Source: Vogesella margarita
GTDB taxonomy: Bacteria > Pseudomonadota > Gammaproteobacteria > Burkholderiales > Chromobacteriaceae
Length of the DNA stretch: 64,000 bases
Assembly: GCF_028548475.1 (NCBI RefSeq)
Contig: NZ_JAQQLE010000001.1
Coordinates: forward strand, 1 to 64,000
Direction of reading: 5' to 3'
Shown: positions 7,308 to 63,898 of the stretch, piece by piece
Layout: the number at the start of each line of letters is the position of its first letter
Numbering within the stretch: position 1 is the stretch's first letter
Program-made: the position numbers and the translations under genes
The notes under the pieces: generated by a model
What the model was told of the DNA's origin: nothing
Database searches by the model: none
The model's input: only the letters and a program-made list of their open reading frames with translations

Positions 7308-7336
7308 GGATGCCGGTGCCGCGGTGATCGGCAATG

Positions 7337-7367
7337 ACAAAGCCGGTGTCGTCGACACCGGCTTTGT
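7337..7367. terminator. Bidirectional terminator between diguanylate cyclase and gabD
   Basis: A 14-bp perfect stem (7337-7350 with 7354-7367) has a 3-nt loop. It lies between the convergent 3' ends of the cyclase and gabD genes and starts and ends in A/T-rich arms (ACAAAG...CTTTGT), so it can work on both strands. Confidence 0.8.
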
Positions 7368-7374
7368 CTTGCGC

Positions 7375-7399
7375 AAGGTTGGCCGCAAGCGGCCAACCT
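7375..7399. repeat. Inverted pair of the dispersed 13-mer (hairpin)
   Basis: An exact AAGGTTGGCCGCA (7375-7387) is followed by an inverted copy, GCGGCCAACCT (7389-7399). The perfect 11-bp stem (7376-7386 with 7389-7399) has a 2-nt AA spacer. It lies 8 nt beyond the preceding hairpin and 12 nt from the gabD stop. Confidence 0.92.
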
Positions 7400-7411: not shown

Positions 7412-8872
7412 TTACTTGTCGATGCCACCCAGCAGCACGTACTTGATTTCCAGGTAGTCTTCGATGCCGTACTTGGAGCCTTCGCGGCCGAGGCCGGATT
7501 GCTTCACGCCACCGAACGGTGCGGCCTCGTTGGACAGGATGCCGCTGTTGACGGCGACCATGCCGTACTCCAGACCTTCGGACACGCGGAAGATGCGGCC
7601 GATGTCGCGGGCGTAGAAGTAGGAAGCCAGGCCGAACTCGGTGTCGTTGGCCATCTGGATCGCTTCTGCTTCGGTCTTGAAGCGGAACAGCGGCGCCAGC
7701 GGGCCGAAGGTTTCTTCCTTCGCCACTTTCATTTCCGGAGTCACACCGGTGATCACGGTCGGCTCGAAGAAGCTGTAGCCCAGTTCGTGGCGCTTGCCGC
7801 CGGTCAACAGGTTGCCGCCCTTGGCCAGCGCGTCGGCGATGTGCTCTTCCACCTTGGTCACCGCGTTCTCGTCGATCATCGGGCCCTGGGTGATGCCGGC
7901 TTCCAGGCCGTTACCCACTTTCAGTTTGGCGACTGCGTCGGCGAACTTGGCGGCGAAGGCATCGTACACGCCGTCCTGTACCAGCAGACGGTTGGCACAC
8001 ACGCAGGTCTGGCCGGCGTTGCGGTACTTGGAAATCATCGCGCCTTCTACTGCGGCGTCCAGGTCGGCGTCGTCGAACACGATGAACGGTGCGTTGCCGC
8101 CCAGTTCCATCGATACCTTCTTCACGGTTTCGGCACACTGGCTGATCAGCTTGCGGCCAACTTCGGTGGAGCCGGTGAAGGAGAATTTCTTCACGGTGTC
8201 GCTACCGGTGAGCACGCCACCAATTTCGGTGGAACCACCGGTGAGTACCGAGAACACGCCAGCCGGAATGCCGGCGCGCTCGGCCAGTACGGCGATGGCC
8301 AGTGCCGACAGCGGGGTCTGGCTGGCCGGGCGTACCACCATCGGGCAACCGGCTGCCAGGGCCGGGGCTGCCTTGCGGGTGATCATGGCATTCGGGAAGT
8401 TCCACGGGGTGATGGCGGCGGTAACGCCGATCGGCTCCTTGCTTACCAGGATGCGCTTGTCGGCGCCGGTGGAAGGAATGGTGTCGCCGTAGATGCGCTT
8501 GGCTTCTTCGGCATACCACTCGATGTAGCTGGCGCCGTAGGCGATTTCGCCCTTGGCTTCCGCCAGCGGCTTACCTTGCTCGCTGGTCAGGATCACGGCC
8601 AGGTCGTCCTGGTTCGCCATCATCAGGTCGAACCACTTGCGCAGGATGCCGGCGCGTTCCTTGGCGGATTTTTTCTTCCAGGTCTTGAACGCTTCTGCAG
8701 CGCCGTCCACGGCGCGCTGGGCCTCGGCGCTACCCATTTTCGGCACGTGGGCGATGGTTTCGCCGGTAGCCGGGTTGGTGACCGCAATGGTCTGGCCGCT
8801 ATCGGCATCCACCCACTGACCATTGATGTAGCACTGCTGGCGCAGCAGGGAAGGATCTTTCAGATTCAGCAT
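7412..8872 (-). CDS. gabD: Succinate-semialdehyde dehydrogenase
   Basis: A 486-residue NAD(P)-dependent aldehyde dehydrogenase oxidising succinate semialdehyde to succinate, the last step of GABA catabolism. Visible ALDH features are the ITPWNFPNAMITRKAAPALAAG cofactor region near residue 150, the general-base ELGGNAPFIVFDDADLD near 255, and the catalytic cysteine in NAGQTCVCANR near 287; GPLAPLFRF follows near 390. The second cysteine beside the catalytic one is typical of GabD-type enzymes. AAGGA lies about 9 nt before the ATG. It follows gabT on the same strand with 78 nt between, filled by a hairpin of the dispersed 13-mer. Confidence 0.93.
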   Translation of the reverse strand: MLNLKDPSLLRQQCYINGQWVDADSGQTIAVTNPATGETIAHVPKMGSAEAQRAVDGAAEAFKTWKKKSAKERAGILRKWFDLMMANQDDLAVILTSEQGKPLAEAKGEIAYGASYIEWYAEEAKRIYGDTIPSTGADKRILVSKEPIGVTAAITPWNFPNAMITRKAAPALAAGCPMVVRPASQTPLSALAIAVLAERAGIPAGVFSVLTGGSTEIGGVLTGSDTVKKFSFTGSTEVGRKLISQCAETVKKVSMELGGNAPFIVFDDADLDAAVEGAMISKYRNAGQTCVCANRLLVQDGVYDAFAAKFADAVAKLKVGNGLEAGITQGPMIDENAVTKVEEHIADALAKGGNLLTGGKRHELGYSFFEPTVITGVTPEMKVAKEETFGPLAPLFRFKTEAEAIQMANDTEFGLASYFYARDIGRIFRVSEGLEYGMVAVNSGILSNEAAPFGGVKQSGLGREGSKYGIEDYLEIKYVLLGGIDK

Positions 8873-8895: not shown

Positions 8896-8930
8896 TGCGG
8901 CCAACGTTGCATGGTGCAAGGTTGGCCGCA
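8896..8930. repeat. Imperfect inverted pair of the dispersed 13-mer between gabT and gabD
   Basis: TGCGGCCAACGTTGCA (8896-8911) and TGCAAGGTTGGCCGCA (8915-8930) form a 16-bp stem with one mismatch and a 3-nt loop. The right arm contains an exact 13-mer (8918-8930). It fills the gabT-gabD gap and could attenuate or process the message, because both genes are on the minus strand. Confidence 0.9.
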
Positions 8931-8950: not shown

Positions 8951-10216
8951 TCAGGCCTTGATGGCGGCAACCAGCTTCTGCAGCGCTTCTTCGAAGATAG
9001 CGTCTTCGATGGTCAGCGGGAACAGGAAGCGGACTACGTTGCCGTACACACCGCAAGTCAGCAGGATCAGGCCGGATTCCAGCGCCTTGGTCTGCACTTT
9101 CTTGGTGAAGTCGGCATCGGCTTCGTGGCTGCCGGCCTTGTTGAATTCCACGGCGATCATGGCGCCCAGGCCGCGTACTTCGGCGATCTGCGGAACTTCA
9201 GCCTTCAGGCCGTTCAGGGTTTCCTTCAGCTGGGTGCCAAGCTTGTTGGCGCGGTCCAGCAGTTTTTCTTCCTGGATTGCCTGGATGACGGCTTTGGAAG
9301 CTGCCAGTGCCAGCGGGCTGCCGGCGTAGGTGCCGCCCAGACCGCCCGGTGCCGGTGCGTCCATGTATTCTGCCTTGCCTACCACTGCGGAGATCGGGAA
9401 ACCGCCAGCCATGGACTTGGCCATGGTCATCAGGTCCGGGGCTACGTCGTAGTGTTCCATGGCAAAGAACTTGCCGGTACGGGCAAAGCCGGCCTGTACT
9501 TCGTCGGCGATCATCAGGATGCCGTGCTTGTCGCACAGCGCGCGAACGGCGCGTACCCATTCCGCCGGCGCGGCGTAGAAGCCACCTTCGCCCTGAACCG
9601 GTTCGAAGATGATGGCAGCCACGCGGGTGGCTTCAATGTCGTACTTGAACAAGTGCTCGATGCTGGCGATGGAGTCTTCAACCGATACGCCGTGCAGCGG
9701 GTTCGGGAACAGGCCGTGGTACACGTCGGACGGGAACGGGCCGAAACCGATCTTGTACGGTGCTACCTTGCCGGTCAGCGCCATGCCCATCAGGGTACGG
9801 CCGTGGAAGCCGCCACCGAAGGCGATGATGCCCGGACGGCCGGTTGCGGCACGGGCGATTTTCACTGCGTTTTCCACGGCTTCGGCGCCGGTGGTGTAGA
9901 ACGCGGTTTTCTTGGCGAAGTTGCCCGGGGTCAGCTGGTTCAGCTTTTCGGCAACTTCGATATAGAGTTCGTACGGTACTACCTGGTAGCAGGTGTGGCT
10001 GAACTTGTTCAGCTGCTCGGCAACGGCGGCTTGTACCTTGTCATGCAGGTGGCCGGTGTTCAGCACGCCGATACCACCGGCGAAGTCGATGTAACGCTTG
10101 CCTTCGGTGTCCCAGATCTCGGCATTCTTCGCGCGCTCGGCGAAGAAGGAACACATCACGCCCACACCGCGCGGGGTGGCATTGGCTTTACGTTGCATCA
10201 GTTCTTGCGGACTCAT
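8951..10216 (-). CDS. gabT: 4-aminobutyrate aminotransferase
   Basis: A 421-residue class III PLP aminotransferase converting GABA and 2-oxoglutarate to succinate semialdehyde and glutamate. Family signatures are FAGGIGVLNTGHLH near residue 50, TGAEAVENAVKIARAATGR near 110, the aspartate motif IADEVQAGFARTGKF near 240, and the PLP lysine in TMAKSMAGGFPIS near 268. A strong AAGGAG lies 7 nt before the ATG. It is upstream of gabD, so the pair supplies the whole GABA-to-succinate route. A large hairpin lies about 150-190 nt upstream of its start. Confidence 0.93.
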   Translation of the reverse strand: MSPQELMQRKANATPRGVGVMCSFFAERAKNAEIWDTEGKRYIDFAGGIGVLNTGHLHDKVQAAVAEQLNKFSHTCYQVVPYELYIEVAEKLNQLTPGNFAKKTAFYTTGAEAVENAVKIARAATGRPGIIAFGGGFHGRTLMGMALTGKVAPYKIGFGPFPSDVYHGLFPNPLHGVSVEDSIASIEHLFKYDIEATRVAAIIFEPVQGEGGFYAAPAEWVRAVRALCDKHGILMIADEVQAGFARTGKFFAMEHYDVAPDLMTMAKSMAGGFPISAVVGKAEYMDAPAPGGLGGTYAGSPLALAASKAVIQAIQEEKLLDRANKLGTQLKETLNGLKAEVPQIAEVRGLGAMIAVEFNKAGSHEADADFTKKVQTKALESGLILLTCGVYGNVVRFLFPLTIEDAIFEEALQKLVAAIKA

Positions 10217-10502: not shown

Positions 10503-11042
10503 ATGTCGCGGACTCATGGCTTTTCACTGTTGCAAACACTGATGGTGCTGCTGCTTTGCGGCGTGGTGCTGTCGTTTGCCGTTCCGGCGTGGAGCGGCAT
10601 GGTGCGGGAGCGGGTGCTGCAGGCCTATATCAGCCGCCTGCAGGTGTTGCTGTTGCGAGCCAGGAATGATGCATTGCTGCGGCAACAGCCGGTGTATGTC
10701 TGTGCGGCCAACCTGAAGAGCAACCAGGATCTGCAGGGCTGCTTCGCCAGCCCTCCGCTTGTGGCCGGCGTGCGCCATTGGCCAGAAGGTGTCCTGCTGT
10801 ATCAGGACCGGGCGGGAGGCAGCCTGGCTCGTTACGACTCCAAAGAGGCCCTGCATGTGCTGGCGCTGAAAGCAACGTCGGCCGCGCCGCAGTTGCTGGT
10901 GTCGGTTCCACATTTTGAAGTCGGTGAGTGGGGCGGCTTGAAGAACGTGCAGGAGGTCAGTTTTACGGTACAGGATCGGGACGGCGGCTGCCGGCAACTG
11001 CGGGTGTCGGTGCCGATGCGTATCCGCGCGCTGCCATGCTAG
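10503..11042 (+). CDS. FimT/GspH-like minor type IV pilin
   Basis: A 179-residue prepilin. The short leader MSRTHG is followed by a hydrophobic helix beginning FSLLQTLMVLLLCG, so prepilin peptidase would cleave after Gly6. Mature position 5 is Gln instead of the usual Glu. The C-terminal domain has the FimT/GspH character: a beta-rich domain, cysteine pairs (VCAAN...GCFAS and GGCRQ...LPC) and a basic tail, RVSVPMRIR. The mature protein has a net excess of Arg/Lys. FimT proteins of other bacteria have been reported to bind DNA during transformation; applying that here is inference. GAGGGG precedes the ATG at 10503. It overlaps the next pilin gene by 7 nt and is far from the usual minor-pilin operon genes. 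Confidence 0.78.
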   Translation: MSRTHGFSLLQTLMVLLLCGVVLSFAVPAWSGMVRERVLQAYISRLQVLLLRARNDALLRQQPVYVCAANLKSNQDLQGCFASPPLVAGVRHWPEGVLLYQDRAGGSLARYDSKEALHVLALKATSAAPQLLVSVPHFEVGEWGGLKNVQEVSFTVQDRDGGCRQLRVSVPMRIRALPC

Positions 11043-11470
11043 CGCGGCGCGGCTTCACCCTGCTTGAGCTGCTGCTGCTGCTGGTGCTGGCATTGCTCGG
11101 CATCCTGTCTGCCGCGGCCTTGCCGGCGTATCAGGGGTATGTGCAGCGCAGCCAGCGGGCGCTGGCGGTCGCCCTGCTGCAGGAAAACGCGATGTTTCTG
11201 GAAGAGTTCTATCACCGTCAGGGTAGCTACAAGCTGACACCGACGCGCTGGCCGGCGTTGCCGGCGGTGGTGTCGCCATCCGATGGCGAGCCGCAGTATC
11301 AGCTGGCATTCGGCTCGACGCCACGCAATACCGACGACGGCTACTATGTGCTGCGTGCCACGCGCTTGCAGGCAAGGGATGAAACCGAGGTGATTACCCT
11401 GACACAGACCGGCATCATGAAACTGTGCCTGCGGCGTGACGGGGTGGAGCGGTGTGAACTGGTGCACTGA
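11036..11470 (+). CDS. PilE/ComP-like minor type IV pilin
   Basis: A 144-residue type IV prepilin. The leader MLARRG is followed by FTLLELLLLLVLALLG, with the canonical Glu at mature position 5, then LPAYQGYVQRSQ as in PilE-type pilins. A C-terminal disulphide loop is likely (LCLRRDGVERC). Length fits ComP or PilE-like minor pilins, about 145 residues. It overlaps the FimT-like gene by 7 nt, so the two are translationally coupled and likely work together. In Neisseria the orphan minor pilin ComP binds the DNA uptake sequence. A similar role here is a hypothesis, prompted by the dispersed 13-mer; an ordinary structural minor pilin is the alternative. Confidence 0.78.
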   Translation: MLARRGFTLLELLLLLVLALLGILSAAALPAYQGYVQRSQRALAVALLQENAMFLEEFYHRQGSYKLTPTRWPALPAVVSPSDGEPQYQLAFGSTPRNTDDGYYVLRATRLQARDETEVITLTQTGIMKLCLRRDGVERCELVH

Positions 11471-41794: not shown

Positions 41795-44593
41795 ATGAAA
41801 ACCTTGTTATTGATTGACGGCTCTTCTTATTTGTACCGGGCCTTCCATGCGATGCCCGACTTGCGCTCGCCCACCGGCGATCCGACCGGTGCCATCTACG
41901 GCATGGTCAACATGCTGCGCCGGCTGGAAAAGGAAGTGCAGTTCGATTATAGCGCCTGCATTTTCGATGCTAAAGGTAAGACTTTCCGCGACGAGCTGTA
42001 CCCGGAGTACAAGGCCAACCGGCCGTCGATGCCCACCGACCTCGCCGCGCAGGTCGTCACCGTGTACGAGGTGGTGCGCGCCAGCGGCTGGCCGCTGCTG
42101 ATGGTGGACGGCGTCGAGGCCGACGACGTGATCGGCACCCTGGCCCGCAGCGCCGAGGCTGCCGGCATGCGGGTGATCGTGTCTACCGGCGACAAGGACA
42201 TGGCTCAGCTGGTGACGCCGGCGGTGTCGCTGGTCAACACCATGACCAACGAAAACCTGGACGAGGCCGGGGTGCAGGAGAAGTTCGGCGTGCCACCGCA
42301 CCTGATCATCGACTACCTGACGCTGATCGGCGACAAGGTCGACAACGTGCCCGGCGTCGACAAGTGCGGCCCGAAGACGGCGCTGAAGTGGCTGCAGGAG
42401 TACGGCACGCTGGAGGGAGTGATCGCCCATGCGGCCAACGTTGGCGGCAAGGTCGGCGACAACCTGCGTGCGGCGCTGGACTGGCTGCCGCGCGGGCGCG
42501 AGCTGATCACCATCAAGTGCGACGTGCCGCTGCAGGCCGAGCTGCCACAGGGCATGGACAGCCTGCTGCACGGCAGCAAGGACAAGGCGCGGCTGGCGGA
42601 ACTGTTCGCCGCCTGCGGCTTCCGCACCTTCCTGCGCGAAGTCAGCGAGACGGTGGCCGACTCCGTCACCAGCAGCCCCGCCGTGCCACGGGCGCAGCCG
42701 GCGCTGCATACCAGCGGCGACCTGTTCGGTGACGACAGCGAGGCGGCAGCGGAGACGGTGCCGGCGGCGCCGTCGCCCGCCGCCATTGCGCGCCACTACG
42801 ACACCATTCTCACCGACGCGCAGCTGGACGACTGGCTGCAAAGGTTGGCCGCGGCCGAGGTAGTGTCGCTGGACACCGAGACCACCAGCCTCGACCAGAT
42901 GCAGGCGCAGCTGGTCGGTATCAGCTTCTCGGTGGCGGCGGGGCAGGCGGCTTACCTGCCGCTGGCGCACCGCGGCCCGGACGCGCCGCAGCAGCTGGAT
43001 TTCGACGCCACGCTGGCGCGACTGAAGCCGTGGCTGGAAGACGCCGCCAGTAAAAAGCTGGGGCAGAACCTGAAGTACGACCGCCACGTGTTTGCCAACC
43101 ACGGCATCACCCTGCGCGGCGTCATTGACGATACGCTGCTGGCCTCCTATGTGATCGAGAGCCACGAACGCCACGGCATGGACGATCTGGCGCGCCGCCA
43201 CCTGAACGAAACCACGGTCAGCTACGAGGACATCTGCGGCAAGGGCGCCAAGCAGATCGGCTTTGCCGAGGTGGCGGTGGACGTGGCGGCCAACTATGCG
43301 GCCGAGGACGCCGACATCACCCTGCGCCTGGCGCAGCACTTCGCCCCACTACTGAGCGGCAAGCTGGCCGAGGTCTATCGCGACATCGAGCTGCCGGTGG
43401 CGGAGGTGCTGTTCAAGATGGAGCGCAACGGCGTGCTGATCGACCGCGACAGGTTGGCGGCGCAAAGCCACGCGCTTGGCAGCGAGATGCTGCAACTGGA
43501 GCAGCAGGCCTACGCGCTGGCCGGTCAGCCGTTCAACCTCAATTCGCCGAAGCAGCTGCAGGAAATCCTGTTCGGCAAGCTCGGCATCCCGACCAAGGGC
43601 GTGCGCAAGACGCCGTCTGGCGGCTTTTCCACCGACGAGGAAGTACTGGAAAAACTGGCACTGGATCACCCGCTGCCGAAGCTGATCCTGCAGTACCGTG
43701 GCCTCGCCAAGCTGAAGTCGACCTATACCGACAAGCTGCCGACGCTGATTAATCCACAGACCGGCCGCGTGCACACTACTTATGCACAGGCGGTGGCGAT
43801 TACCGGCCGTCTGGCCAGCTCCGACCCCAATCTGCAGAACATCCCGGTGCGCACCGCCGAGGGCCGCCGCGTGCGCGAGGCCTTCATCGCCGCGCCCGGC
43901 CACGTGATCGTTTCCGCCGACTACTCGCAGATCGAGCTGCGCATCATGGCGCATCTGTCCGGCGACGCCGGCATGCTGGCGGCGTTCGCCAGCGGCGAGG
44001 ACATCCACAAGGCCACCGCCGCCGAGGTGTTCAGCACGCCGCTGGCGGAGGTCAGCACCGAGCAGCGTCGCGCCGCCAAGGCCATCAACTTCGGCCTGAT
44101 CTACGGCATGGGCGAATTCGGCCTCGCCTCGCAGCTGGACATCAGCCGCGACGCCGCCAAGCTGTACATCGACAGCTACTTCCGCAAGTACCCGGGCGTC
44201 GCCGAGTACATGCAGCAGACGCGCGATGCGGCGCGCGAGCAGGGCTACGTCGAGACCGTGTTCGGCCGCCGCCTGTACCTGCCGGAGATCCGCGCCGCCA
44301 ACCAGGCGCGTCGCGCCGGCGCCGAGCGCGCGGCGATCAACGCGCCGATGCAGGGCACCGCCGCCGACCTGATCAAGCTGGCGATGATCGCGGTGCAGGG
44401 CTGGCTGGAGGCGGAGCGATTGCAGAGCAAGCTGATCATGCAGGTGCACGATGAACTGGTGCTGGAAGTGGCAGACAGCGAACTGGCGCGGGTGCGGGAA
44501 AAACTGCCGCAGCTGATGGCGGGCGTCGCCGCGCTGAAGGTGCCGCTGCTGGCGGAGGTCGGTGTCGGCAACAGCTGGGAGAGTGCACACTAA
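41795..44593 (+). CDS. polA: DNA polymerase I
   Basis: A 932-residue three-domain polymerase. The 5' nuclease domain (about 1-290) has IDGSSYLYRAFHAMPDLRSP and DGVEADDVIG. The 3'-5' exonuclease (about 350-530) keeps the acidic LDTETTSLD, so proofreading is likely intact. The polymerase domain (about 530-932) has SADYSQIELRIMAHLSGD, RRAAKAINFGLIYGMG and VHDELVLEV. It repairs gaps and removes RNA primers. A 12-of-13 copy of the dispersed motif (42841-42853) lies in the linker before the exonuclease. A 20-bp-stem terminator follows. Confidence 0.97.
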   Translation: MKTLLLIDGSSYLYRAFHAMPDLRSPTGDPTGAIYGMVNMLRRLEKEVQFDYSACIFDAKGKTFRDELYPEYKANRPSMPTDLAAQVVTVYEVVRASGWPLLMVDGVEADDVIGTLARSAEAAGMRVIVSTGDKDMAQLVTPAVSLVNTMTNENLDEAGVQEKFGVPPHLIIDYLTLIGDKVDNVPGVDKCGPKTALKWLQEYGTLEGVIAHAANVGGKVGDNLRAALDWLPRGRELITIKCDVPLQAELPQGMDSLLHGSKDKARLAELFAACGFRTFLREVSETVADSVTSSPAVPRAQPALHTSGDLFGDDSEAAAETVPAAPSPAAIARHYDTILTDAQLDDWLQRLAAAEVVSLDTETTSLDQMQAQLVGISFSVAAGQAAYLPLAHRGPDAPQQLDFDATLARLKPWLEDAASKKLGQNLKYDRHVFANHGITLRGVIDDTLLASYVIESHERHGMDDLARRHLNETTVSYEDICGKGAKQIGFAEVAVDVAANYAAEDADITLRLAQHFAPLLSGKLAEVYRDIELPVAEVLFKMERNGVLIDRDRLAAQSHALGSEMLQLEQQAYALAGQPFNLNSPKQLQEILFGKLGIPTKGVRKTPSGGFSTDEEVLEKLALDHPLPKLILQYRGLAKLKSTYTDKLPTLINPQTGRVHTTYAQAVAITGRLASSDPNLQNIPVRTAEGRRVREAFIAAPGHVIVSADYSQIELRIMAHLSGDAGMLAAFASGEDIHKATAAEVFSTPLAEVSTEQRRAAKAINFGLIYGMGEFGLASQLDISRDAAKLYIDSYFRKYPGVAEYMQQTRDAAREQGYVETVFGRRLYLPEIRAANQARRAGAERAAINAPMQGTAADLIKLAMIAVQGWLEAERLQSKLIMQVHDELVLEVADSELARVREKLPQLMAGVAALKVPLLAEVGVGNSWESAH

Positions 44594-44619: not shown

Positions 44620-44661
44620 AAAGGTTGGCCGCAACAGCGTGCGCTGTTGCGGCCAACCTTT
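44620..44661. terminator. Terminator built from an inverted pair of the dispersed 13-mer
   Basis: AAGGTTGGCCGCA (44621-44633) and its reverse complement (44648-44660) are the outer parts of a perfect 20-bp stem (44620-44639 with 44642-44661) with a 2-nt loop, followed by T's to 44664 on the plus strand. It separates the convergent polA and diguanylate cyclase genes and should stop transcription from polA. Confidence 0.93.
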
Positions 44662-44677
44662 TTTGTCGTAACGGCGC

Positions 44678-46345
44678 TTACAGCGATTCGGCGACGCAGA
44701 CGCGGTTGCGTCCCTTGGCCTTGGCCTGGTACAGCGCCTGGTCGGCGTGGCGGATCAGTTCGCTCAGCTCGCGGCAGGCCGGTGCCAGCGAGGCGACGCC
44801 GATGCTGACCGTGATCGGGATGGTGTGGTCCTGGTGCGTGATCGGCAGCGCGGCGATGGCGTTGCGCAGGCGTTTTGCCACCACCAGCGCCTCTTCGGCC
44901 GGTGTATCCGGCAGGATGGCGGCAAACTCTTCGCCGCCCATGCGGCAGACCAGGTCGCTGGCGCGCAGCGCGCCCTTCACGCACTGGGCGAAGGCCTGCA
45001 GCACCACGTCGCCGCCCTCGTGACCGTGTTTGTCGTTGACGCGCTTGAAGTGGTCGATGTCCATCATCAGCAGGCTGAACGGTTTGCCGAGGTAGCGTGC
45101 CTCCTTGAAACGTTGCGAGGCGAGGTCGATGAAGTGGCGGCGGTTGGCCATGCCGGTCAGCCCGTCCTGCGTCGCCAGCCGGTACAGCGCGGTGGCGCGC
45201 TGCTCCTGCTGGATGGCGATCGCCATCAGGTGCGAGGTGCGGCGCACGATGTCCAGCAAGTGCGGCTCCGGCGTGCAGGGGTGCTCGTGGTAGAGGCCGA
45301 AGGTGCCGAGCACCTTGCCGTCCTGTGCCAGGATGGGCAGCGACCAGCAGGCGCCAAGCCGGTGGGCGGCGGCCAGCTCGCGGTAGTCCTGCCACAGTGG
45401 GTCATGGGCGATGTCGCTGACGATCACCATCTCGCCTCGCCACGCGGTGGTGCCGCAGGAGCCGATGCCCTCGCCGATCGGCAGCCCGTCGATCGCGTCC
45501 TTGTACTCGCTGGCCAGCGACGGTGCCGCCGCCAGGTACAGCCGTTCGCCGGCCTCATCCAGCAGCATGATGCTGCACATCGCGCCCCCGAGCTGGCCCT
45601 CGAGGGTCTGGCAAGTCCAGCCCATCACCTCCGGCAGCGGGCGGTCGTTGGCGATCATTTCCAGCAGCCGGTTCTCGTCGGCTTCCCATTGTCTGGTCGC
45701 ATGCTGCTCGCTGATGTCGCGATCGATGCTGAGCAGCGATTGCAGCTCGCCGTCGTCGTTGTACTCCGGCAGCAGTCTCGATTCAAACACATAGTGTCGT
45801 TGCGGCAGGCTCAGCTCGCTGATGAAGCGTTGCGGCTTGCCGCTGGCGATCACCTGCTGTGCATTGTGGCGGATGGCGTCCTTCAGCTGCGCGGGCAGGA
45901 AACGTTCTTCCAGCGTGCGGCCGATGTGTTCCGCCGCCGAGGTCGGCGAGAACTTGCTCAGCGAGTGGTTGATGAAGCGGCAGCGCAGGTCGAGGTCGTA
46001 GCGGGTGATGATGTCCGGCGAGTTGTCGACCAGGGTGCGGAAGGCGTGGCGGTCCTCGCGCACGCTGATCAGCCAGCCGGCGCTCAGCGGTGTCACCAGC
46101 CACTCCAGCAGCAGGCCCTGCGCTGGCAGCGTCAGGTCGCCGTTGTCGGGTTGTTCCAGGCGCTGCAGCACCGCCTGTGGCAGCAGTGTGGCCGGCAAGG
46201 GACTGCCGACGACGGGCAGCGGCTGGCCGTGACAGGCGATGCTGAAACGCTCGCTGACGAAGACGACCTGTCGCGACAGGTCAAGCAGCAGGTAACCGGC
46301 CGGCAGCGCGCTGAGGACGGTTTCGAGAGTGGCTTGGGCGAACAC
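44678..46345 (-). CDS. Soluble PAS-GAF-GGDEF diguanylate cyclase
   Basis: A 555-residue cytoplasmic c-di-GMP synthase. An N-terminal PAS-like region (about 1-95), a PAS domain (about 105-220, NSPDIITRYDLDLRCRFIN), a GAF domain (about 235-380, QLGGAMCSIMLLDEAGERLY and EGIGSCGTTAWRGE) and a GGDEF domain (about 395-555) are visible. The active site is GGEEF near residue 478, with I-site RASD five residues before it. The CGTTA cysteine motif in GAF is common in this class. There is no membrane segment. It is the third diguanylate cyclase in the window. Confidence 0.9.
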   Translation of the reverse strand: MFAQATLETVLSALPAGYLLLDLSRQVVFVSERFSIACHGQPLPVVGSPLPATLLPQAVLQRLEQPDNGDLTLPAQGLLLEWLVTPLSAGWLISVREDRHAFRTLVDNSPDIITRYDLDLRCRFINHSLSKFSPTSAAEHIGRTLEERFLPAQLKDAIRHNAQQVIASGKPQRFISELSLPQRHYVFESRLLPEYNDDGELQSLLSIDRDISEQHATRQWEADENRLLEMIANDRPLPEVMGWTCQTLEGQLGGAMCSIMLLDEAGERLYLAAAPSLASEYKDAIDGLPIGEGIGSCGTTAWRGEMVIVSDIAHDPLWQDYRELAAAHRLGACWSLPILAQDGKVLGTFGLYHEHPCTPEPHLLDIVRRTSHLMAIAIQQEQRATALYRLATQDGLTGMANRRHFIDLASQRFKEARYLGKPFSLLMMDIDHFKRVNDKHGHEGGDVVLQAFAQCVKGALRASDLVCRMGGEEFAAILPDTPAEEALVVAKRLRNAIAALPITHQDHTIPITVSIGVASLAPACRELSELIRHADQALYQAKAKGRNRVCVAESL

Positions 46346-59886: not shown

Positions 59887-61026
59887 ATGAATATCAGAAA
59901 GCCTTTTTACCTGGCTATCGTTAGGGTTATTAATTTTTTTGATTTTAGAAAAAGAGATGCTGAGTTTTTTAATAGAAAAAAAGTAGGTAAAGTACTGATC
60001 ATACCATCAACACAAATTGGTGATATGTATATGTCTTTGCCTTCCATTCATGCAGTAATACGATCATATCGCAGTGAAAATGTGGTCTTATTGTTGAATG
60101 AAATGTATCGAAATGTTTTTGACTTTCCATCGGGTGTGACAATTATTTATCGAGGAAAAGGGTGGCAGAATTTCCTTTATGATGCGTTGAAAGTATACAG
60201 GCAGCATTGTGATGTGGCGCTGATTTTGCATGCAAATGAAATGCAGCATACGCCTTTGGCATACATGTCAGGGGCACGATTTATTTTTCAGCTGCCGAAT
60301 AAGACGAGGTTCAATTATTTACTTAGTAATTCGTTCCCTGTCCGAGGCTGGGGCGCGGACGAGCATGCTTCATACACAAGGTATGAGGTTGTAAAGCTAA
60401 TAGGAATTTCTGAAGACAGGAATGATTTTTTTATAAAAGCATTTTCTAGTGAAGCCAACCGTAAGGTTGGTGTTCAGGTCGTGAATGATATCAAAAGTGA
60501 CCATTGTTCTGATTTTGTTGTCGGTCTGCAATTGGGTGCTTCAAGCAAGAACAGGTGTTGGAGTATAAATAATTATGCTCATCTTGTTTCTATGTTTAAA
60601 GATTGTTCTGAACAATACGGACGAGTCACTTTTGTTGCTTTGGGTGGGAAGGATGACTTGGCCTTGGCAGAAGAGTTGCTGAAGTTGACCGGGTCAAGTG
60701 TTGTTTCTTTAGTTGGGAAAACAAAAATTTCAGAATTACCTGGTGTGATTTCTGGTATGGATTTTATTGTTTCTCCTGATACAGGCACTTTGCATATTGC
60801 GGAGTCGATGGGAACGCCTGTGATAGGTTTGTTTGGCGTTGAAAAAAGTAAATTCAGTGGCTCCGGTTATTTGGGTGGCAAGAAGTACATTATAGAAAAG
60901 CCTCAAACTTGTCAGCCTTGTCTTTATAACCGATGTGCTTATTCTCCGCCAAAATGTATGGAGCAGATTGCCGTGCATGAGGTTTTTTCTCTTGCCTGCA
61001 ATATTATAAAGGATATTGAAAAATGA
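59887..61026 (+). CDS. GT9 heptosyltransferase-family protein, AT-rich
   Basis: A 379-residue GT9 enzyme. VLIIPSTQIGDMYMSLPSIHAV near residue 36 and HANEMQHTPLAYMSGARFIFQLP near 115 precede VVGLQLGASSKNRCWSINNY and FIVSPDTGTLHIAESMGTPVIGLFG. The C-terminus (TCQPCLYNRCAYSPPKC) aligns with the product of 56417, so the two are diverged paralogues in one cluster. Codons end mainly in A or T, unlike the flanking genes, a sign of recent acquisition. GAGTT-type spacing precedes the ATG, and it overlaps the next gene by 4 nt. Confidence 0.86.
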   Translation: MNIRKPFYLAIVRVINFFDFRKRDAEFFNRKKVGKVLIIPSTQIGDMYMSLPSIHAVIRSYRSENVVLLLNEMYRNVFDFPSGVTIIYRGKGWQNFLYDALKVYRQHCDVALILHANEMQHTPLAYMSGARFIFQLPNKTRFNYLLSNSFPVRGWGADEHASYTRYEVVKLIGISEDRNDFFIKAFSSEANRKVGVQVVNDIKSDHCSDFVVGLQLGASSKNRCWSINNYAHLVSMFKDCSEQYGRVTFVALGGKDDLALAEELLKLTGSSVVSLVGKTKISELPGVISGMDFIVSPDTGTLHIAESMGTPVIGLFGVEKSKFSGSGYLGGKKYIIEKPQTCQPCLYNRCAYSPPKCMEQIAVHEVFSLACNIIKDIEK

Positions 61027-62090
61027 ACGTATTGTTTGGTACTACGCGCCAATGGAATCCTGGTGATGAATTTATTCTTATGGGGTGTATTAATTTGCTC
61101 CATAAGGTCATTGGTGATTTCAATCCGATTATATATAACAGAAACCCTCAAACCAGGCCCGTTGTGAAACGGAAGGGGGTGAAAAAATTTTTCTATGAGA
61201 AATTTTTCTCTGGTAATGAGTTTTTGGATAATTCTTTCAAAGATGATCCTGAGGTAAATTATGTGGACTTGGTTGTTTTTGCCGGGTCTCCAGAATGGAA
61301 GGGTGAGAGACTTAGCTCTCTGTATGATTTTATTGTTAAACACAATGTGCCTGTTGTTTTTATTGGACTTGGCTCAGCAAAAAAATTCAATTTTGATGAG
61401 GGGTTTTTGACAGAAAAAGAAATGTCCGTATTGAATTCTGCCCTTTTTATTTCTTGTCGAGATGATGTTACTTTTGCCGGTTTTGATGGTAAGGCTAATG
61501 CAAGAAAAATTACCTGCCCAGCACTTCTTTCCAGTAAGACAAGTTCTGTTGTAGAAGAAGTTAAAAAGATTGGTCTAATTTATGGTAGGTCTGATGCTGT
61601 AAATAGTAATAGGGTGTCAGAAGAAACTTACGATTATCTGATGCGCTTTTACAGAAAATTGATAGAAATTTATTCTGGTCAGTACGAGTTTGAATTTATT
61701 GCACATTATATTGATGAGTTGCCTAGGTTTTCTGAAGATTTTCCTGGGTTTAAATTGAACTATTCGTATGATGCAAAGGATTACGTGGATATATTTGGTA
61801 AGTTCGATGTCGTTGTAGGCCATCGTATCCATGGTATTGGTTTGGCTGCATCTCAGGGTATACCTGGGGTTGCTATCTCTCATGATAGGAGAGGGGCGAC
61901 TGCTAAAGGGTTTGGTGCTGAGATGATCTCTGTTGGTGAGGATCTGAATATGGCTGTTGATAAATTCAATATGGTTGTTTCTGAGGTTTCAACCCGAAGC
62001 AAAAAAATTATTTTTGATAAAAATGCTCTCATGGATGAGTATGTCTCTATTTTGAGTGATGCATTGAGTGAATTCAATAAAAAGGGTTAG
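61023..62090 (+). CDS. Polysaccharide pyruvyl transferase-family protein, AT-rich
   Basis: A 355-residue protein with the outline of the polysaccharide pyruvyl transferase family: an N-terminal [15 protein letters not shown] block near residue 12, [20 protein letters not shown] near 82, [13 protein letters not shown] near 140, and the C-terminal [25 protein letters not shown] near 260. The family adds pyruvate ketals to surface sugars or acts as related GT-B transferases. AT-rich codon use matches its neighbours in the insert. Confidence 0.8.
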
Positions 62091-62095
62091 CTTTC

Positions 62096-62734
62096 ATGTT
62101 GAGGAGAACTGTTGGGAGGTTTGTTAGAAAACTCTTGAGAGTGGCAGGGGTGAATGGTGATGTTTATAGAAAGAGCGCTATTGATGATGGCAATTTGGTT
62201 TTTTTAGGTAGTGCCCGTCCTGATTTTTCTATAAAAAAACCAGTGGTTATAAATGGGCTTGTTGTTTACTGTTGGGATTCTACTGTCAAGTTGAGTATTG
62301 GTAATTATTCTTCTATTGCTGATGGTGTTTGTATTGTTGCTGGTGGTGAGCATAGGTTGAACTGGGTTACTACTTATGCTTTTATTGAAAATTGGAAAAT
62401 TAAAGATTTGTACAACAAGCTTGAGAAGAAAAGTAAAGGGGATATCGTTATCGGGAGTGATGTTTGGGTGGGTAGTGGAGCTACAATTTTGTCTGGTGTA
62501 AGTGTTGGGCATGGTGCTGTAGTGGCTGCAGGTTCTGTGGTTGTTAAAGATGTTCCGCCATACGCTATTGTTGGAGGGAATCCAGCGCGGTTAATACGTT
62601 ATAGGTTTACTCCAGATGTAATTGAGAAAATGATGGCTATTGCATGGTGGAGTTGGCCTGAGAATTTAGTCAGGGAAAGAGCTGGCGATTTAATAGATGT
62701 TGATGGATTTGTGAGAAAATATAGTTGTAGATAA
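62096..62734 (+). CDS. Hexapeptide-repeat acetyltransferase, AT-rich
   Basis: A 212-residue left-handed beta-helix acyltransferase of the CatB/xenobiotic type. [28 protein letters not shown] near residue 65 holds the catalytic His. Hexapeptide turns run from about 118 ([18 protein letters not shown]) to [17 protein letters not shown], with [17 protein letters not shown] at the end of the helix. It probably O-acetylates a core or surface sugar. It is the last AT-rich gene; composition returns to high GC within 20 nt of its stop. Confidence 0.87.
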
Positions 62735-62750
62735 ATTGATTGCGCTGAAA

Positions 62751-63803
62751 ATGAAAATCCTGGTGATACGTCGCGACAATATCGGCGATCTGGTTTGTAC
62801 CACGCCCTTGATTGCAGCCTTGCGTGATAAATATCCGCAAGCGGCAATCTACGCACTGGTCAACGACTACAACAAGGATGTGCTGGATGGGCACCCGCTG
62901 CTGGATGGCGTGTACTTCTATACCAAACTGAAGCACCGCCAAGCGGGGGATTCGGTTGTGCGGGTGATCTGGCGCAAGCTGATGACCTACCTTGCGCTGC
63001 GGCGAGAACATTTTGATTACGCGATCGTGGCCGGCTCGGGTTATCCCAAGAATGCGGTCCGTCTGGCCAAGGCCGCTAGACCGAAGCACGTGATCAGTTT
63101 CGTGTCGGAGGGGACAGACTATGATGCCATCGTGGACTACCCGATCCCCTTCACGCGGGATCATGTGTTCCGTCACGAAGTAGAGTGCCTTGCCGAACTA
63201 CTGGTACCGCTTGGCGTGACTCAAGCGCCCGGCAAGCTGAGTTTGCCTCCTGTTGTGGTGCCTGATGTCTTGGCCCGCCGTTTTTCCACCAAGCAGCGTC
63301 CGGTTATCGCCTTGCACATCAGTGCCCGCGAAAACAGTCGGGTGTGGGCGGTCGAGCATTTTTGCGAAGTGATCCGTAGCTGCTTGTCGCGGGACGTGGA
63401 TTTCCTGCTGCTGTGGGCGCCTGGTGCCGCGGATGATCCCCGTCACCCGGGGGATGATGAGAAAGCGCATTACATCCGCAGCCAGTTCCCGGATCACGAG
63501 CGCCTGGTGTTCTACCCGACACGTACGGTCAAGGATTTGATGGCTGCTTTTTCCTGCGCCGATCTGGCGGTGTGTTCGGATGGTGGCGGCTTGCATCTCG
63601 CGGCGGGGAGCGGGGCCTGTGTGGTCGGCCTGTTCGAGCATCTGGAAAAGAAAACCAAACATTGGTATCCGTGGCAGGTGCCGCACCGGGTGTTGACCTC
63701 CGGTTCCGAACAGGACTGGCAGGTTGGTCATATCCCTGTACAGGCTGTTGTGGATGCGATTGACGACTTGCTGCCACAGGCGGCAGGGGCTAGCCGCGAC
63801 TGA
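62751..63803 (+). CDS. GT9 heptosyltransferase-family protein
   Basis: A 350-residue GT9 enzyme. ILVIRRDNIGDLVCTTPLIAALRD near residue 3 is the N-terminal glycine loop, IALHISARENSRVWAVEHFCEVI near 182 begins the donor domain, and LAVCSDGGGLHLAAGSGACVVGLF near 270 closes it. I chose the ATG at 62751; a TTG at 62736 is the alternative. High GC resumes here. It ends the cluster and is followed by an inverted motif pair. Confidence 0.86.
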   Translation: MKILVIRRDNIGDLVCTTPLIAALRDKYPQAAIYALVNDYNKDVLDGHPLLDGVYFYTKLKHRQAGDSVVRVIWRKLMTYLALRREHFDYAIVAGSGYPKNAVRLAKAARPKHVISFVSEGTDYDAIVDYPIPFTRDHVFRHEVECLAELLVPLGVTQAPGKLSLPPVVVPDVLARRFSTKQRPVIALHISARENSRVWAVEHFCEVIRSCLSRDVDFLLLWAPGAADDPRHPGDDEKAHYIRSQFPDHERLVFYPTRTVKDLMAAFSCADLAVCSDGGGLHLAAGSGACVVGLFEHLEKKTKHWYPWQVPHRVLTSGSEQDWQVGHIPVQAVVDAIDDLLPQAAGASRD

Positions 63804-63832: not shown

Positions 63833-63866
63833 ATTGCGGCCAACCTTGTCCAAGGTTGGCCGCAAT
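63833..63866. terminator. Palindromic pair of the dispersed 13-mer, probable terminator
   Basis: TGCGGCCAACCTT (63835-63847) and AAGGTTGGCCGCA (63852-63864) form a perfect 16-bp stem (63833-63848 with 63851-63866) with a 2-nt loop. GTTTTTGG follows on the plus strand. It separates the convergent GT9 and TolC-like genes, so it likely ends transcription from both. Confidence 0.9.
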
Positions 63867-63898
63867 GTTTTTGGTGCACCGTCTGCTGTAAACCAGAA

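Follow-up and report, generated by a model that had tools for sequence, protein, structure and literature searches.

An uptake-sequence-like repeat of Vogesella and its inverted pairs as putative terminators at gene 3′ ends

Vogesella genomes carry an abundant repeat, GGTTGGCCGCA, that resembles a DNA uptake sequence. Inverted pairs of this repeat lie 3′ of genes, where they quite probably form hairpins that would act as intrinsic terminators wherever a U-tract follows. At the level of DNA sequence, the abundance of the repeat, its inverted-only pairing, the 3′ position of the pairs, the T-runs on their gene-facing sides and the replacement of the hairpin after polA are all evident. Two inverted copies just 3′ of a gene would make the transcript fold into a very stable GC-rich hairpin. 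Joined to a U-tract, such a hairpin, in many cases lying between convergent genes, would serve as an intrinsic (Rho-independent) terminator, and pairs without a U-tract may be weak terminators or 3′-end hairpins. The repeat itself may be an uptake signal, recognised by a minor pilin of the ComP or FimT type. The DNA analysed ("the window") is a stretch of 64,000 nt from Vogesella margarita (NZ_JAQQLE010000001.1, positions 1 to 64,000), in which a sequence-only reading had taken four inverted pairs for terminators.

The repeat and its possible role in uptake

The repeat can be written as GGTTGGCCGC(A), and its full extended form is AAGGTTGGCCGCAA. An exact count of GGTTGGCCGCA gave 1312 copies in the 3.33-Mb Vogesella genome, with 644 on one strand and 668 on the other, and 23 exact copies lie within the 64-kb window. 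The reversed control of GGTTGGCCGCA had no copy in the same genome. This count (1312 vs 0), together with the 168 inverted pairs vs 1 direct pair described below, led us to reject chance or low complexity as the origin of the repeat and its pairs. Copy numbers were then compared across 61 genomes of the family, which is Chromobacteriaceae by NCBI. All 13 Vogesella genomes held 1141–1510 copies each, and none of the 48 non-Vogesella genomes held more than 22. Among 300 genomes of the order, more than 19 copies were found only in the three Vogesella members drawn. A scan of named genomes for the paired pattern gave at least 98 stretches, with Vogesella species, Beta proteobacterium L13 and Neisseriaceae MAGs among the matches listed. 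Judged by its sequence and distribution, GGTTGGCCGCA (AAGGTTGGCCGCAA) resembles an uptake sequence and occurs throughout the genus Vogesella.

The copy number and the presence on both strands agree with what is expected of a DUS (about 1000 copies or more, both strands). On the other hand, GGTTGGCCGCA contains no CTG, the core of published DUS, and GCCGTCTGAA had 0 copies in a 464-kb sample of the genome. Because the CTG core is absent, the repeat was filed as DUS-like only and not as a member of the neisserial DUS. The uptake-signal reading, for which the likeness to Neisseria had been cited, gained indirect support, but the motif does not belong among the CTG-core dialects of neisserial DUS.

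Should the motif serve in uptake, the candidate receptor gene would be that of a ComP-like minor pilin in the window (11036..11470, + strand, PF16732). The best solved match of its product was 2nba; the matches, to 2nba, 2m3k and 5hz7, covered the C-terminal part, and two matched chains are named ComP. The gene follows a GspH/FimT-like gene with a marginal Pfam score, the two together spanning 10542-11470. Within ~10 kb of polA, a PF16732 match was also seen in several further genomes of the family. The second PF16732 match (C10) resembles a pilin of the PilA/PilE type, and neighbouring ORFs appear pilin-like by eye. PF16732 matches were present in 61/61 family genomes with or without the motif (60 of them over the cut-off), showing that the presence of a match does not track the motif.

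This lack of tracking, like the absence of the CTG core of known DUS, would also suit a genome-wide site of another kind, Chi- or KOPS-like, bound by a nucleoid protein or methylated, whose pairs would still be reused as terminators. Several observations make this unlikely. A Chi/KOPS-like strand bias was looked for and none was seen, with 92 vs 87 copies on the leading and lagging strands in 20 stretches from two genomes. No copy was found in a 20-kb stretch of phage genes (L300, G347:C1:1500001-1520000), one of 41 stretches examined; each of the eight genes scanned there matched a phage structural or packaging family (terminase, portal, head, tail sheath). Moreover, the repeat has lineage-specific dialects as in Neisseriaceae, and the window encodes the ComP-like pilin.

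Position and terminator signature of the inverted pairs

Pairs were classed by the order of their copies, motif-first as type A and complement-first as type B, with 0–30 bp between the 10-bp cores. The genome contains 105 type A and 63 type B pairs, 168 inverted pairs in all, vs a single direct pair with a gap of ≤30 bp. Type B pairs numbered 34–67 per genome in all 13 Vogesella genomes. We examined 107 of the 168 pairs, namely the first-listed of types A and B and those in the 464-kb sample; with a gap of up to 10, 43 of them were motif-first and 41 complement-first. Spacers ranged from 2 to 23 nt, and both flanks and spacers differed from pair to pair. The type A spacers were unevenly distributed, 16 nt occurring in 9/57 examined pairs, separate from the main peak of 5–9.

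The 464-kb sample consisted of the window and 20 stretches of the same genome, which were picked by place and spread over nine contigs. Gene calls were our own and approximate; the caller started from five seed genes, three of them identified by Pfam (polA, aroB and the GGDEF gene next to polA) and two by ORF that Pfam confirmed later, and a length-only fallback was used for uncovered stretches. Because the stretches were picked after the pair lists had been seen and are pair-rich (33 pairs vs 23.4 expected), densities from this sample run high. It held 224 copies of the motif, 66 paired and 158 single. Paired copies were intergenic in 64/66 cases vs 50/158 for single copies, in DNA that is ~88% coding. 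Pair density varied among Vogesella species with a similar motif count, from 33 in the pair-rich 464 kb here to 5 (G350) and 2 (G347) per 200 kb.

Being palindromic, intergenic, at 3′ ends and in many copies, the pairs invite comparison with REP/BIME- or MITE-like mobile palindromes. We rejected this origin, which is hardly credible, because the palindrome is not the unit (158 of the 224 sample copies are unpaired, 108 of those in coding DNA) and no sequence is shared beyond the arms, given the differing flanks and the spacers of 2–23 nt. Two opposite geometries were also found at one polA site within the genus.

A survey of pair positions of the kind that the sequence-only reading had called for did not refute that reading, as the pairs were not mostly within or before genes. 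Among the 107 pairs, 54 lay in convergent gaps, 48 in co-directional gaps and 0 in divergent gaps; four were at stretch edges and one in a doubtful ORF, which leaves 102 placed pairs. The last, the sole "intragenic" pair, sits in a length-only fallback ORF that has no coding score. The distance from pair to stop codon had a median of 20 bp and was ≤50 bp in 94/102 placed pairs. A co-directional gap is 3′ of one gene and 5′ of the next, and 45/48 pairs in such gaps were closer to the upstream stop than to the downstream start. In the 464-kb sample, where gaps of ≥40 bp comprised 62 convergent, 148 co-directional and 63–64 divergent ones, the 33 pairs were divided into 16 convergent, 16 co-directional, 0 divergent and 1 within the doubtful ORF.

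Single copies, too, favoured convergent gaps, with 1.42 per kb against 0.52 per kb in divergent ones, as would be expected if 3′ gaps merely tolerated insertions and the inverted pairing served DNA uptake or arose neutrally, with no role in RNA. This possibility appears quite improbable, since direct pairs are nearly absent (1), and divergent gaps, where 9/49 intergenic singles lie, contain 0/32 pairs of the same sample. In one relative (G328, see below), T-runs follow the pairs and not the single copies.

The sequence beside the copies also differed from shuffles in some classes. Outer-flank complementarity was above shuffles in convergent type B pairs (0.626 vs 0.553; 18/2000 shuffles as high) and was not above shuffles in type A or co-directional type B pairs. 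Inner complementarity was above shuffles in type A pairs (0.790 vs 0.671; 6/2000 as high) and was not in type B pairs.

Runs of four T (T4) within 12 nt of a pair were counted as the signature of a U-tract. They were found on 59/156 gene-facing sides vs 2/48 sides facing no gene end (Fisher p 1.4e-6), and in 14/143 control windows free of the motif at like distance from stops. The signature was clearest for type B, with T at positions 5-8 in 45–79% of gene-facing sides vs 0–22%. At least one gene-facing T4 run was present in 46/102 pairs (33/54 convergent, 13/48 co-directional), so that a classical U-tract is missing from the 3′ hairpins formed by over half of the pairs. The 56/102 pairs without a gene-facing run were foremost type A pairs in co-directional gaps, 23/30 of which lacked one.

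These 56 pairs are what would be expected if the pairs were 3′-end hairpins and mostly not terminators, with Rho ending the transcripts further on, exonucleases trimming them back and the hairpin protecting the mRNA. As a general account of the pairs, this seems somewhat unlikely, considering the bias of T-runs to gene-facing sides (59/156 vs 2/48) and the fact that polA pairs stand where outgroups have a hairpin and T-run. The pairs without a T-run may nevertheless be weak terminators, protect the 3′ end or have no such role.

Motif-free terminators were rarer at pair-bearing 3′ ends than at pairless ones (6/58 vs 55/214, p 0.013), as though pairs stood in for them. With a strict finder, terminators of any kind were found at 20/58 pair-bearing and 56/214 pairless 3′ ends; pair-built ones were found at only 14/58 pair-bearing ends by this finder, which misses T-tails starting some bases past the stem. 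A general terminator scan was powerless here, with 19 found vs 16.4 expected and 14 vs 19.0 expected from shuffles. Overall, the excess of inverted over direct pairs, the position 3′ of genes and the gene-facing T-runs (in 46 of the 102 pairs only) match the sequence pattern of uptake-repeat-pair terminators as a class.

The polA 3′ end and the other window sites

The pair at 44620..44661 (type A, + strand, copies 44623-44632 and 44649-44658) forms a 19–20 bp stem 3′ of polA, the DNA polymerase I gene (41795..44593, +, Pfam DNA_pol_A and exonuclease domains). A convergent GGDEF/GAF/PAS gene (44678..46345, −, Pfam) lies on the other side. The palindrome has 20 complementary pairs around a 2-nt centre and folds as ~19 bp with a 4-nt loop. 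Its stem begins 26 nt past the polA stop, and the RNA fold has −49.4 kcal/mol with a z of −8.2. The T run which had been reported after this pair was confirmed as T6 on the polA strand (44659..44664, +); it comes after the last G-C pair, and the stem takes in its first bases as well, three of the T's lying inside the longest stem. By its own rule, the general terminator scan did not list the site. With a hairpin 3′ of the stop codon and a U-tract, the 44620 pair looks like an intrinsic (Rho-independent) terminator.

The polA 3′ end was compared in the best 30 of 61 family genomes, 17 outgroup and 13 Vogesella loci. A short ordinary hairpin with a T-run was found in 16/17 outgroup loci, the remaining locus (L280) being unreadable. 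An inverted-motif-pair hairpin stands after polA in 7/13 Vogesella loci: the pair is of type A in five, with a single substituted base in two of the five, and of type B with T-runs in the other two. The other Vogesella loci comprise five with a single copy and other hairpins, and one with a hairpin without the motif. Across these loci, the position at the polA 3′ end is kept and the hairpin sequence is replaced, with two opposite geometries within the genus. Of all the evidence, this replacement points most directly to a terminator role of the pairs.

All four pairs described by the sequence-only reading (7375, 8896, 44620 and 63833) are present and intergenic. Their stems have the lengths given there, perfect ones of 11, 20 and 16 bp and one of 16 with a single mismatch, the palindrome proper of the 7375 site being 7376-7399. 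Seven folded strands of the four window regions each beat all 200 dinucleotide shuffles.

The pair at 63833..63866 (type B, +, copies 63836-63845 and 63854-63863, a 16-bp palindrome) lies 29 nt past the stop of a glycosyltransferase family 9 gene (62736..63803, +, Pfam); on its other side lies a (−) gene that is truncated at the window edge. The pair is followed by GTTTTTGG and also has a T-run, absent from the sequence-only reading, in the form of TTTTT at 63868-63872. The site is listed by the general terminator scan. As at polA, hairpin and U-tract 3′ of a stop codon make the 63833 site look like an intrinsic terminator. Upstream of it, at 59887-62734, three long ORFs were rejected by the codon-based caller and are possibly foreign; they lie beside the glycosyltransferase gene at 62736.

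Neither the pair at 7375 nor that at 8896 is flanked by a T4 run within 12 nt, and the general terminator scan lists neither. The 7375 site is located between a GGDEF gene (+) and an aldehyde dehydrogenase gene (7412..8872, −, Pfam Aldedh), and its type A pair (7376..7399) has 11 bp around a 2-nt centre. Between this pair and the upstream stop stands a separate perfect 15-bp hairpin without the motif (7336..7368), whose GC part is followed by TTTGTCTT on the + strand; this hairpin is the better terminator candidate of its gap. The type B pair at 8896..8930 (−, 16 positions with one mismatch, no U-tract) lies between a class III aminotransferase gene (8951..10216, −, Pfam Aminotran_3) and the aldehyde dehydrogenase gene, also on the (−) strand, and ends 23 nt before the next start. 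It is more likely an intercistronic hairpin or attenuator than a terminator. The flanking genes are presumably gabT and gabD. The claim that all four pairs are terminators was thus too strong, since only 44620 and 63833 look like intrinsic terminators.

Sister repeats and comparison with known systems

Related repeats were found elsewhere in the family. In k-mer counts on 40-kb samples of 10 relatives, GGTTGGCCGAA occurred in the g4, g140 and g141 genomes and GGTTGGCCGAG in g137; two genomes each of g2, g3 and g139, sampled likewise, gave nothing comparable to the dialect repeats. Whole-genome counts of GGTTGGCCGAR exceeded 100 copies in 10/48 non-Vogesella family genomes (126–1068 copies), one of which was the single positive among ten g3 genomes. 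The other 38 family genomes and the 13 Vogesella genomes had ≤21 copies, and outside the family none of 399 genomes of the order had more than 26. The stretches in which the sister repeats GGTTGGCCGAA and GGTTGGCCGAG were noticed (L244, L245, L250-L255 and L306-L325) belong to the relatives G328, G338, G341 and G283.

The relatives differed in how their copies are paired. In 240 kb of G328, 10/10 pairs were type B, eight of them convergent, and T4 runs were present on 17/18 gene-facing sides. T's were found at five positions in 80–90% of the 20 paired copies and not in the 64 single copies, indicating that the U-tract there belongs to the terminator and not to the repeat. In G338, three type A pairs were found in 240 kb, with T4 on 2/5 gene-facing sides. 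The five pairs in 200 kb of G350 had T4 on 0/8 gene-facing sides, and the two pairs in 200 kb of G347 on 2/3. We lean toward the view that the Chromobacteriaceae have their own set of uptake dialects built on GGTTGGCCG (GGTTGGCCGCA in Vogesella, GGTTGGCCGAA/GAG in 10/48 others) without CTG, and that lineages separately made inverted copies into terminators, with differing geometries and with a T-run only where the copies are paired.

In Neisseria, inverted DUS pairs act as terminators, and the same pattern was described for the USS of Pasteurellaceae (Kingsford et al., 2007, PMC1852404). That paper proposed that hairpins come ready-made from the abundant uptake repeats and acquire their T-tail through point mutation. 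Within 10 nt, it counted 226 motif-first and 5 complement-first pairs in Neisseria, and 50 and 25 pairs in the two geometries in H. influenzae. According to Frye et al. (2013, PMC3630211), all DUS dialects reported there share 5′-CTG-3′ and inverted pairs occur in all DUS genomes; the same source reports no obvious DUS in five genomes, of Laribacter, Lutiella, Pseudogulbenkiania and Chromobacterium (2).

Among the titles listed in the literature searches, none presents the motif as an uptake sequence, and the searches turned up no uptake assay. The kind of system is known; within the reach of these searches, the repeat and its dialects are new. The Vogesella pairs would represent the same exaptation of uptake-type repeats as terminators, here with another repeat and in another lineage. 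This suggests that having many invertible copies, and not one particular sequence, is what creates the link. As an uptake sequence, the repeat would be an exception to the rule that DUS in this order have a CTG core in common. It would also offer a dialect set (CA, AA and AG endings) in relatives with ComP-like pilins, which could be used in tests of receptor specificity.

Among the closest known systems are the inverted DUS-pair terminators of Neisseria. An abundant short repeat, inverted pairs and a near absence of direct pairs are shared (PMC1852404), as are the enrichment in convergent gaps and the A-/T-tails tracking gene direction (PMC1852404, PMC3630211). Unlike in Neisseria, the repeat is another one and the geometry is mixed, with 105 motif-first and 63 complement-first pairs within 30 bp in Vogesella. 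The use of both geometries resembles the USS pairs of Pasteurellaceae, from which Vogesella differs in having an unrelated repeat and lineage (PMC1852404). With the DUS of Neisseriaceae, the Vogesella repeat shares lineage dialects and more than 1000 copies per genome on both strands, and a ComP-like pilin, as the candidate receptor, is present (PMC3630211, PMC10715097); unlike those dialects, the Vogesella motif contains no CTG (PMC3630211).
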